Below the pieces are notes generated by a model. The model did no database searches and had not been told where the DNA came from. It was given only the letters and a program-made list of their open reading frames with translations. From Streptomyces capitiformicae (lineage in GTDB: Bacteria; Actinomycetota; Actinomycetes; Streptomycetales; Streptomycetaceae): a stretch of 64,000 nucleotides of DNA. The position numbers and the translations under genes are program-made. This document shows, piece after piece, positions 7,546 to 52,415 of the stretch; the stretch's first letter is position 1; every line of letters starts with the position of its first letter. The stretch is from NCBI RefSeq assembly GCF_002214185.1, contig NZ_CP022161.1, positions 5,021,767 through 5,085,766 on the forward strand. Reading direction: 5' to 3'.

Positions 7546-7804
7546 TCAGGGCGCTTCTGATGGATCTCCGCGGCGTCGCGACGCCCGGCACGCTCCCCCA
7601 CTCTCGGCTTCTCCCCCACTCTCGGCTTCGCTCGAGCGGGAGGGGCCCCATGAGCGGGAGGTGCCCCCATGAGCGGGAGTTGCCCCCACCGCCGCACCGG
7701 ACAAAGCCCTGGTAGCTCCGCTGCGAGGGCTTCCGCCCGGCACGCCGGGAGCATGCACCGAACGCCGCTCCTTCTCCCACGGAGATCCATCAGAAGCGCC
7801 CTGA
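7546..7804. mobile_element. Palindrome-armed non-coding element, copy A (259 bp)
   Basis: The ends are perfect 25-base inverted repeats: 7546-7570 (TCAGGGCGCTTCTGATGG...) and its complement at 7780-7804. With a small bulge the pairing extends outward over CAGCGG. The interior shares GACGCC.GGCA, CGCACCGG..AAAGCCC, CCCGGCACGCC and GAGCA.GCACC with copies B (33987-34163) and C (52146-52415). The arm sequence, however, is specific to this copy. A nested repeat occupies 7593-7687. It lies between two convergent genes and has no open reading frame of its own that looks real. It could be a MITE-like element or a structured RNA/terminator cassette. Confidence 0.65.
7593..7687. repeat. Nested palindromic repeat with tandem expansions, inside copy A
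   Basis: CCCCCACTCTCGGCTTCT is tandemly duplicated, then comes the palindromic joint CGCTCGAGCG, then the unit GAGCGGGAGGGGCCCCAT appears three times with small changes. The same composite is found in copy C (52191-52284), and a minimal inverted copy is at 56905-56946. Copy B of the host element lacks it, so it is a separate insertion. Confidence 0.7.
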
Positions 7805-32899: not shown

Positions 32900-33670
32900 G
32901 TGAACCCTGAACATCCCGAGGCGCGGGAAGCGCCGGCGGACCCCGAAGACCAGGACAGGGAACCGGAGCGCGGCGCGCCCATCGGCCGCCGCGTCCTCCT
33001 CGGCACTCTCGGCCTCGGCGCCCTGGGCGTGGTCGCCGCCCCCGTTCTTCAGCGCGGCATGGAATCGTTCCTCGGCGCGGCGGCTCAGAAGGACCCCACC
33101 GGCCTGACCGGTCTGCTCCCCAACGGCGGCGGCTTCCGCTACTACTCGGTGACGTCGTCCGTGCCCCGCAAGTCCGCGAAGAACTACCGCCTCACCGTCG
33201 ACGGCCTGGTCGACAAGCCCGCCTCGTACACCCTCGCCGATCTGCGGGCCCTGCCCCAGACCCGGATGGTGAAGGACGTCCAGTGCGTCACGGGCTGGCG
33301 GGTGCCGGACACCCCGTTCGAGGGCGTACGGCTCTCGGAGCTGCTGGACGCGGCCGGGGTGCGCTCCACGGCCGGCGCGATCCGCTTCACCTGCTTCGAC
33401 GGGGCGTACACCGAGAGCCTCACGCTCGAACAGGCGCGCCGCGCGGACGTCCTGGTCGCCCTGCGCATGCAGGACAAGGACATCAGCCACAACCACGGCG
33501 GCCCGGTACGCCTCTACGTCGCGCCCATGTACTTCTACAAGTCGGCCAAGTGGCTCTCCGGCATCGAGGTCACGGAGAAGGTCGAGCCGGGTTACTGGGA
33601 GAAGCGGGGCTACGACATCGACGCGTGGGTGGGCCGATCGAACGGGCGGGACGATGAACCAACGACTTGA
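32900..33670 (+). CDS. Membrane-anchored molybdopterin oxidoreductase (sulfite-oxidase/MsrP-like)
   Basis: 256 residues. A charged N-terminus and one hydrophobic segment after a twin-arginine-like RR (GRRVLLGTLGLGALGVVAAP) suggest Tat export with an uncleaved anchor. The sulfite-oxidase-fold molybdopterin domain follows, with VDGLVDKPASYTLADLRALP, the molybdenum-ligand cysteine in VKDVQCVTGW, and FEGVRLSELLD. Its stop overlaps the cytochrome b gene start by 17 bases, so the pair is translated together and forms a two-component redox enzyme passing electrons through haem, analogous to MsrP/MsrQ. Substrate unproven. Confidence 0.85.
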   Translation: MNPEHPEAREAPADPEDQDREPERGAPIGRRVLLGTLGLGALGVVAAPVLQRGMESFLGAAAQKDPTGLTGLLPNGGGFRYYSVTSSVPRKSAKNYRLTVDGLVDKPASYTLADLRALPQTRMVKDVQCVTGWRVPDTPFEGVRLSELLDAAGVRSTAGAIRFTCFDGAYTESLTLEQARRADVLVALRMQDKDISHNHGGPVRLYVAPMYFYKSAKWLSGIEVTEKVEPGYWEKRGYDIDAWVGRSNGRDDEPTT

Positions 33671-34454
33671 GGCGCAGCCGGTTGCCTCCGGGACCCGCGT
33701 CCGGCGCTTCACACCGGCCGAACGCTGGATCCACCGCACGACGGCCGCCCTGATGGGCGTCTGCGTGGCGACGGCGGCCTGCCTCTACGTCCCCGCCCTC
33801 GCCGAACTCGTCGGTCGCCGGGCCCTGGTGGTGACGCTCCACAAGTGGACGGGCCTGCTCCTCCCGCTCCCGGTCCTCGCGGGCCTGGCCTCCCGCACGT
33901 TCCGCGCCGACGTCGGCCGCCTGAACCGCTGGGGTCCACACGACCGCCTCTGGCTCCGCGCCGCCCGCTGTCGTGTCCCGGGCCTTGGGCCCTGTCGCCA
34001 CACTCCCGGCTGCCTCACGACGCCATTCACGCACGCTGGCCGCACCGGGCGAAAGCCCAAGTACATCCAGTACGAGGGCTTTCACCCGGCACGCCCAGAG
34101 CACGCACCTGACACCGTGAGGCCCGCCCTTCGGGCGGACGACGGGAGTGTGGCGACAGGGCCCCGCCCCGCCGCCAAGTTCAACGCCGGGCAGAAGCTCT
34201 ACGCCGCCTGGATCGCCGGCGCCACCCTCGTCATGCTCGCCACGGGCCTGATGATGTGGTTCACCCACCTCACCCCCCTGATGTGGCGCACCAGCGCGAC
34301 GTTCGTCCATGACTGGCTCGCGCTGACGATCGGTATTGTCCTGGCCGGCCACATCGGCATGGCCCTCGGAGACCCGGAGGCCAGGCGGGGATTGCGGACA
34401 GGGCTGGTGAGCCGGGAGTGGGCGGACCGGGAACATCCGCTGTGGCGGCCGTAG
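33654..34454 (+). CDS. Di-haem cytochrome b subunit with a 59-residue in-frame element insertion
   Basis: 266 residues. Four membrane helices contain likely haem ligands: RWIHRTTAALMG (helix 1), VTLHKWTGLLLPL (helix 2), ATFVHDWLALTIG and LAGHIGMALGD (helix 4). It is the membrane partner of the molybdoenzyme encoded just upstream. Between helices 2 and 3, residues 112-170 (bases 33987-34163) are encoded by palindrome-armed element copy B: they are Pro/Arg/Thr-rich and unlike the family. Without them the protein would be 207 residues, the usual size. The element is 177 bases, exactly 59 codons with no stop, so the gene stays open and the extra loop lies on the cytoplasmic side by the positive-inside rule. 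Whether it still works is unknown. Confidence 0.82.
   Translation: MNQRLEAQPVASGTRVRRFTPAERWIHRTTAALMGVCVATAACLYVPALAELVGRRALVVTLHKWTGLLLPLPVLAGLASRTFRADVGRLNRWGPHDRLWLRAARCRVPGLGPCRHTPGCLTTPFTHAGRTGRKPKYIQYEGFHPARPEHAPDTVRPALRADDGSVATGPRPAAKFNAGQKLYAAWIAGATLVMLATGLMMWFTHLTPLMWRTSATFVHDWLALTIGIVLAGHIGMALGDPEARRGLRTGLVSREWADREHPLWRP
33987..34163. mobile_element. Palindrome-armed element, copy B (177 bp), inside the cytochrome b gene
   Basis: Perfect 22-base terminal inverted repeats (33987-34008 starting GGGCCCTGTCGCCACACTCC; complement at 34142-34163). The interior has GCACCGGGCGAAAGCCCAAG, then CCCGGCACGCC and GAGCACGCACC, shared with copies A and C. It lacks the nested repeat found in those copies, so it is the simplest form. 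No target-site duplication is visible. Confidence 0.7.
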
Positions 34455-43507: not shown

Positions 43508-43592
43508 TGTCCGAGGGGGGACTTGAACCCCCACGCCCGATAAAGGGCACTAGCACCTCAAGCTAGCGCGTCTGCCATTCCGCCACCCGGAC
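43508..43592 (-). tRNA. tRNA-Leu (anticodon GAG)
   Basis: 85-nt class II tRNA. The acceptor GTCCGGG pairs with CTCGGAC (one G-T pair). The D loop includes TGGCGGAATGGCAGACG, the anticodon stem-loop GCTTGAGGT gives anticodon GAG for CUC/CUU codons, then the long variable arm TGCCCTTTATCGGGCG and the T arm GGGGGTTCAAGTCCCCC. No CCA is encoded. I see no attachment-site duplication or integrase beside it. Confidence 0.95.
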
Positions 43593-52120: not shown

Positions 52121-52153
52121 CAGGCCCTGCGGGATCCGGCGAAGCAGGGCCTG
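52121..52153 (+). terminator. Hairpin after the LLM oxidoreductase gene, merging with element copy C
   Basis: CAGGCCCTGC (52121-52130) and GCAGGGCCTG (52144-52153), perfect 10-base arms. The right arm is also the outer end of the copy C inverted repeat, which starts at 52146. Confidence 0.6.
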
Positions 52154-52415
52154 TCGTCAAATTCCCGTCTGCCCCGCGACGCCTGGCATGCTCCCCCACT
52201 CTCGGCTTCTCCTTCATTCTCGGCTTCTCCCCCACTCTCGGCTTCGCTCGAGCGGGAGGGGCCCCATGAGCGGGAGGGGCCCCACCGCCGCACCGGGCGA
52301 AAGCCCAAGTACATCCAGTCCATCTACGGGGCCTTCCGCCCGGCACGCCGAGAGCACGCACCAGACGCCGCGGGGCCGCCCTTCGGGCGACGACGGGAAT
52401 TTGACGACAGGCCCT
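52146..52415. mobile_element. Palindrome-armed element, copy C (270 bp)
   Basis: Perfect 24-base inverted ends (52146-52169, containing GGCCTGTCGTCAAATTCCCG; complement 52392-52415). The interior shares GCACCGGGCGAAAGCCCAAG, CCCGGCACGCC, GAGCACGCACC and GCCCTTCGGGCG with copy B, and carries the nested repeat at 52191-52284 like copy A. The remaining gap to 52608 holds another inverted repeat (ACGGCCGTGG 52416-52425 with its complement at 52449-52458); I see nothing else there. Confidence 0.7.
52191..52284. repeat. Nested palindromic repeat inside copy C
   Basis: Three CTCGGCTTC-containing 17-base units (one degenerate, TCCTTCATTCTCGGCTTC), the joint CGCTCGAGCG, then GAGCGGGAGGGGCCCCA twice. 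Same family as 7593-7687 and 56905-56946. Confidence 0.7.

Follow-up and report, generated by a model that had tools for sequence, protein, structure and literature searches.

Three small elements in a 64,000-nucleotide stretch of the Streptomyces capitiformicae chromosome (the window) raise the question of why a repeat should keep its interior and change its ends, the reverse of what an ordinary MITE family does. The initial annotation of the window held that elements A (7546..7804), B (33987..34163) and C (52146..52415) share a core, that their terminal repeats differ, each matched perfectly to its own partner, and that no transposase lies nearby. The arm comparison upheld the coordinates and the perfect pairs, with 25/25 bases matching in A (left end 7546..7570, TCAGGGCGCTTCTGATGGATCTCCG; right end 7780..7804), 22/22 in B (33987..34008 and 34142..34163) and 24/24 in C (52146..52169 and 52392..52415). 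The common core also stood. It lies at 7672..7769 in A (covariance model R1, 39.1 bits, E 3.1e-4; model match at genome 5029438-5029535, minus strand; blastn piece at genome 5029457-5029533), at 34016..34118 in B (R1, 97.9 bits on the minus strand and 47 bits on the plus strand) and at 52287..52377 in C, which was recognized by blastn with B's core (genome 5074053-5074143, 84%) and falls outside the R1 matches at E <= 0.001. All three elements and their cores have the minus strand as the folding strand described below. The difference between terminal repeats held in part: A carries ends of one type (type 4), whereas the ends of B and C are variants of another (type 1). The absence of a transposase agrees with our reading of the window's open reading frames. 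A second repeat, CTCCCCCACTCTCGGCTTCGCTCGAGCGGGAGGGGCCCC and its variants, forms an expanded array within A (7593..7689, read from the sequence as a CTCCCCC...GAGCGGGAGGGGCCCC repeat) and C (52191..52285). The number of its units differs among many copies (for example L012, L013, L015 and L023), and it is also found separating unrelated genes, as at L066.

The family reaches far beyond the window. With B as the blastn query, 58 matching pieces were found in the 10.99 Mb genome (one contig, in which the window spans 5021767-5085766), and the covariance model gave 39 matches at E <= 0.001, several of which are the two strands of one place. B's core was present in 71 of 150 Streptomyces genomes when searched by blastn with six candidates scored per genome. 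The model combined with strict filters matched 17 of 246 genomes of the class, namely 15 Streptomyces, including the source genome, and two weak matches outside the genus (L338 and L340), each of which has by eye at least one end resembling type 3. For comparison of copies we took 30 from the source genome and 100 regions from other Streptomyces genomes, and retained the 129 loci with a blastn-found core; L006, which has no core, was left out. A set of 104 elements, 150-360 bp long and with an arm score of at least 18, bear terminal inverted repeats and carry no transposase gene, as MITEs do.

When an end was typed by a match of at least 18 of 24 bases, both ends were assigned in 118 of the 129 loci, one end in 9 and neither in 2. 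The arms fall into classes, with 11 labels in all, and 113 of the 118 loci have the same label at both ends: 32 of type 1, 24 of type 3, 11 each of types 2 and 2b, nine of type 1b, seven each of types 2c, 2d and 4, and, more rarely, three of type 2f and one each of types 2e and 1c. In three of the remaining loci (L203, L243 and L258) the labels differ only as neighboring sub-types with near-equal scores; the other two, L007 and L011, are truly mixed, with type 2 at one end and type 1 at the other. A search with the end patterns added two further chimaeras, L036, in which the core is present, and L059, in which it is lost. Same-type ends on one copy are therefore a strong rule and not a law, with four mixed-end copies as exceptions. 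The end repeats are not a chance feature, because the forward patterns are far commoner in the genome than the reversed ones: 29 occurrences vs 2 for the 13-base type-1 end GGGCCTGTCGTCA, and 11 vs 0 for a 14-base type-4 end. Types 1, 1b, 2, 2b, 2c and 2d form a graded series on the pattern CTAGG(G/T)C.TGTC...... Different copies do carry different matched end pairs on the same conserved core, and the family shows neither many copies with non-matching arms nor arms identical across most copies; the pairs are, however, not copy-specific as first described, since about a dozen types recur from genome to genome. Perfect pairing likewise describes A, B and C, but outside the window many pairs of arms have mismatches, and within a type the left and right ends repeatedly show fixed differences; type 3 has GTTC at one end and GTTT at the other, as does the IS630 element L120. 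These recurring differences and the mixed-end copies contradict the suggestion that arms are homogenized within a copy.

What the end types correspond to became apparent from autonomous elements, which were sought by blastn of the end sequences against annotated plasmids, with 16 places read. L120, from S. cynarae, is a 1506-bp element with type 3 at both ends, the two ends being alike at 27/28 bases, and its transposase matches NCBIfam IS630 at 8.6e-46. Type 2b stands at both ends of the 893-bp L271, whose frame matches IS5_3 at 1.1e-47, and the 894-bp L270 has ends like those of L271. L272 (1291 bp) has type 1b at both ends over the first 18 bases and matches IS5_3 at 5.6e-46; L121, from Methylorubrum, is an 849-bp element annotated as IS5 with type-1-like ends; and at L123 an IS5_3 match of 1.4e-73 has type 2 on one side, and a search for ends found no second one to match it. 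The other places read were elements without a transposase or ambiguous (for example L122, L124-L127, L273, L275 and L277). The proposal that the ends could be a recognition module is thereby borne out, with matches to IS5 or IS630 ends for types 1b, 2b and 3 at both ends and for type 2 at one end, and a related match for type 1. The likeness is confined to the outer 17-28 bases, CTAG included. Inward of this cap, types 1, 1b, 2 and 2b have in common TCCCG(T/C)C, which is absent from these insertion sequences, and types 3 and 4, despite their different ends, have GTCGCGACGCCCGGCACGCTC in common on one side, as they do GACGCCGCTCCTT on the opposite side. Because the match to insertion sequences is limited to the outer bases and the inner sub-ends are common across types, the part that is swapped is a transposase-specific cap. 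There was no sign of a MITE formed by internal deletion of one insertion sequence, as L120, L121, L123 and L270-L272 match only in these outer 17-28 bases, and the element body is absent from L120, L121 and L123 as read.

Among the loci fetched from the source genome, no autonomous element with matching ends was found. None of the PF01609 loci (30 of 37 matches fetched) or PF13359 loci (19 of 19) had matching ends at both sides, and one transposase locus of this genome, L084, has related ends at CTAG. The IS630 family (20 of 21 matches fetched) yielded only L354, a relative at CTAG that is 42% identical and has an internal stop; its end matches type 3 at 20/28 bases. A transposase for type 4 was not found: the pattern occurs in 22 of 199 genomes, the close opposite pairs among those listed are all element-sized, and tblastn searches of 30 type-4 loci with four transposase queries found nothing.

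The target of insertion is CTAG. This tetranucleotide is present at both ends in 50 of the 104 elements, at one end in 22 and at neither in 32, the last including A, B and C, which are among the decayed copies. In the window CTAG occurs at 14 sites vs 173 expected from base composition, about twelve times more rarely. By eye, 9 of these 14 sites coincide with the stop of an open reading frame of at least 150 aa, the frames being mechanical calls. The count of gene stops within an end CTAG depends on the gene caller (15 sides with one, more with another), and we do not press it. Element B offers a view of an insertion. It lies inside an open reading frame (33654-34454, plus strand) whose product matches PF01292 (cytochrome b561, 2.6e-14) and which stays open through the element, B being in frame and adding 59 codons. 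In nine relatives the gene aligns on either side with 26-46 unaligned bases between, the place that in the window is taken by about 20-40 flanking bases and the 177-bp element. Empty sites, which the initial annotation had named as a thing to look for, thus appear for B in nine relatives, although these are too distant to fix the exact target duplication. On this alignment B is predicted to be an element turned into protein sequence, with 59 residues absent from those relatives.

If ends belong to transposases, the next question is whether bodies are bound to particular ends. Among 57 distinct cores, the 790 pairs that fall within one end cluster had a mean core identity of 0.868, and the 806 pairs that span two clusters one of 0.871; the ends of L174, L202, L239, L252 and L259 were cut out of phase in this comparison, so that some "different" pairs are really alike and the averages are blurred, while the pairs named next are unaffected. 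Cores 95-97% identical stand under IS630 ends in one copy and under other ends in another (L212/L221, L189/L221, L197/L180 and L003/L189), and the same body is thus found under both IS5 and IS630 ends. The independence of core similarity from end type indicates that ends have been exchanged, even across transposase families. A hint of the route comes from elements of different types that adjoin, by eye, at a common CTAG-like site (L184, L216, L026 and L039). An outward scan for a second abutting end found one at 7 of 245 ends with at least 16/24 bases matching, of which only L184 is strong (23/24). Exchange by way of such abutting and chimaeric copies is conceivable on these few instances.

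The body that is retained folds in a strand-specific manner. For folding we selected 89 of the 129 loci by a length of 150-260 bp and an arm score of 18 or more (plus denotes the window strand), and all 89 folded better on the minus strand, at a mean of -161.3 vs -125.3 kcal/mol, although copies share ancestry and do not amount to 89 independent tests. The minus strand forms one long hairpin, and the fold extends through to the ends in every form folded. In an arm alignment that scored G.T and A.C alike, core cells on the minus strand comprised 840 G.U vs 97 A.C, with a G.U excess in 89/89 elements. An alignment of 65 of the 89 elements (those of at most 196 bp) gave a consensus fold in which 37 of the 46 core pairs are Watson-Crick and 9 are G.U; where facing columns of the core stem stay unpaired, they are G.G, U.U or C.U, with none A.C. 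In this alignment the bias was seen in each end group, with 427 vs 5 for types 1-2 (n=45), 137 vs 0 for type 3 (n=15) and 45 vs 1 for type 4 (n=5). Deviants at Watson-Crick columns, which read the same on both strands, were G.U in 16 columns (89 cells) vs A.C in 4 columns (4 cells), and columns with one kind of deviant only numbered 14 G.U vs 2 A.C (p 0.004). The excess of G.U in the ends (100 vs 15) is not used as evidence, because type 3 takes its left/right difference over from the IS630 element.

Covariation points in the same direction. RNAalifold on 57 of the 59 distinct cores (L188 and L200, being longer, were left out) gave 45 pairs, 14 of them with both sides changed. In all, 97.7% of cells pair, both-side changes number 126 vs 37.0 in shuffled alignments, none of 500 shuffles reached the observed value in any of five measures, and slid partners pair at most 53.8%; the structure was derived from the same alignment, which gives it an advantage over the slid partners, and sequences of common descent can outscore shuffled ones even where no structure exists. 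In this fold the lower stem, with its tandem U.G/G.U pairs, changes little, the middle stem covaries, and the tip, GUAC-UGGAY-GUAC, which stands on a UC/UU internal loop, is fixed. The G.U pairs of the lower stem fall within GTGC and GGCGTC motifs that read the same in both arms; a role of these motifs in DNA may be real, and the middle stem provides independent evidence. The core thus combines compensatory change with one-strand wobble, the two features that we took to mark a structured RNA. For the earlier view that the ends are selected for pairing, this means that a selected single-strand fold does exist, with its independent evidence in the core, but the matching of the ends is mainly a transposase demand. 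Against Rfam, the window returned only a tRNA gene (43508-43592, minus strand, RF00005) at the gathering threshold, and the B region at a lax threshold gave microRNA hairpins that fell short of the cut-offs of their families (best 37.9 bits vs 97, E 1e-5), with no family matched. A bias in orientation to flanking genes (25 vs 11) with a first gene caller became 24 vs 18 (p 0.44) with a second and was dropped; orientation along the chromosome arms, judged by eye from blastn pieces with a guessed central origin, showed no clear bias.

Taken together, these results make it probable that the family is a MITE mobilized in trans and built of two independent modules, ends that can be swapped and a body that is a conserved structured RNA. 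Other readings account for part of the data. Small elements are usually derivatives of insertion sequences, according to the review PMC10969869 in the portion drawn on here, and the graded series of types 1, 1b, 2, 2b, 2c and 2d could have drifted stepwise with IS5 transposases. An ordinary MITE family of this kind, in which no ends were exchanged, the RNA has no role and recent spread explains the likeness of cores, is nevertheless unlikely: type 3 is the end of an element from IS630, a transposase family unrelated to IS5, and yet covers cores nearly identical to those under other ends, core identity is independent of end type, and the body shows one-strand G.U bias and covariation. Hairpin-directed template switching, which corrects one arm of a palindrome against the other, is an established mutational process. 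It could match the arms of each copy, with pairing unselected, and would also create compensatory changes in the core. As the explanation of the family we consider it highly improbable, since correction restores Watson-Crick pairing for both strands alike and would not produce G.U confined to one of them; under it G.U and A.C should be equally frequent, which they are not, left/right differences persist in many copies, and mixed-end copies survive. The same process may still aid the exchange of ends.

The two other readings concern what the fold is for. The one-strand fold might be used as single-stranded DNA, like integron attC sites or the ends of IS200/IS605, and not as RNA. We regard this as rather unlikely, though G.T pairs stabilize DNA hairpins too and the fold runs to the ends in all forms folded; the ends match DDE transposases, which act on double-stranded DNA (in vitro for IS630, in the portion of PMC2170065 drawn on here). 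It is distinctly unlikely that the core motifs GTGCGTGC and GGCGTC, identical in both arms, are simply DNA binding sites with G.U pairing as a by-product. The nine consensus G.U columns do sit in such self-pairing motifs, but the middle stem, outside the motifs, holds most of the G.U deviants at other columns and most of the 14 pairs changed on both sides.

In the two-module reading that we favor, the first module would be the outer pair of ends (about 17-28 bp, counting CTAG), recognized by the particular transposase that moves a given copy, of the IS5 family for types 1, 1b, 2 and 2b and of the IS630 family for type 3. Supplied in trans, the transposase would carry the copy to a CTAG site, a movement suggested by the matching ends, CTAG flanks and empty site. 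The second module would be the body, a hairpin whose pairing is kept on one strand with G.U wobbles and which is most probably an RNA, made when the element is transcribed in the folding direction. The comparison of cores shows that ends have been traded while this body was kept. CTAG, rare in the genome and recreated at both sides of a copy, could let other elements and tiny end-to-end palindromes insert alongside, and recombination or template switching within the palindromes might then swap ends, as the few abutting and chimaeric copies hint. As an RNA, the body could conceivably act in cis, most readily by forming a hairpin within read-through transcripts and so changing how these are processed or degraded. 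We advance more tentatively the possibility that what persists is a mobile RNA hairpin with a fold selected on one strand, which survives the loss of its transposases by trading recognition ends again and again, carried now by IS5 and now by IS630 transposases, with the rare common CTAG as the point of exchange.

With IS5-family and IS630-family insertion sequences the elements have in common the outer ends and a CTAG/TA target, but the family here lacks a transposase gene. The preference of IS630 for the TA in CTAG is reportedly the title of a 1991 paper. Several systems offer partial likenesses, given here as far as the cited portions of the sources describe them. An IS630-family element transposes into TA (PMC2170065). 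Correia elements of Neisseria (CREE or NEMIS) are small, with inverted ends bearing TA and a conserved core, and their RNA hairpin is acted on by RNase III (PMC2649163, PMC2229807); unlike the present family they have one kind of end, of 24 bp, and those portions report no interchange of ends (PMC2229807). RUP of Streptococcus pneumoniae is thought to be moved in trans by IS630-Spn1, and the folds of RUP, BOX and SPRITE include the paired ends; BOX is also modular, but its modules are internal, and the account drawn on reports no exchange of ends between transposase families for any of the three (PMC3049150). The RNA effect of ERIC/IRU depends on orientation, and Rickettsia palindromic elements (RPE) insert in frame into protein genes, as B does, but transposase-specific end types are reported for neither in the portion cited (PMC2229807). 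Bacterial MITEs with folding transcripts are thus known, among them Correia/NEMIS, ERIC, RUP, BOX and RPE (PMC2229807, PMC3049150, PMC10969869); the word Streptomyces is absent from the main text of PMC10969869 and PMC2229807.

What sets the family apart from the known folding MITEs is that one conserved body occurs under exchangeable ends that belong to two families of transposase. We know of no described case of a body trading ends between unrelated transposase families. A literature search found no title on such end swapping, although its results were partly swamped by arthropod mites and subscription journals lay mostly outside its scope, which falls short of establishing absence from print. 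The usual view is that a non-autonomous element depends on a single transposase and declines along with it. If our reading is true, a body that keeps its fold while its ends are swapped between families shows how such elements escape fading, and whether the body of a MITE is selected for something of its own becomes testable. The one-strand wobble signature, moreover, is a way to separate selection at the RNA level from mere upkeep of a DNA palindrome.

Some relatives depart from this build. L006, L124, L127, L336 and L339 have similar ends and sub-ends around a different middle (GTTGTCG ... TTGCGA), and the middle of the elements may therefore be replaceable too. When the relatives L336, L339 and L349 were folded by strand, one strand was better in each. 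Minimal palindromes consisting of little beyond two facing ends (about 46-60 bp; L031, L069 and L125) were observed in the source genome and on a plasmid of Streptomyces sp. BHT-5-2.
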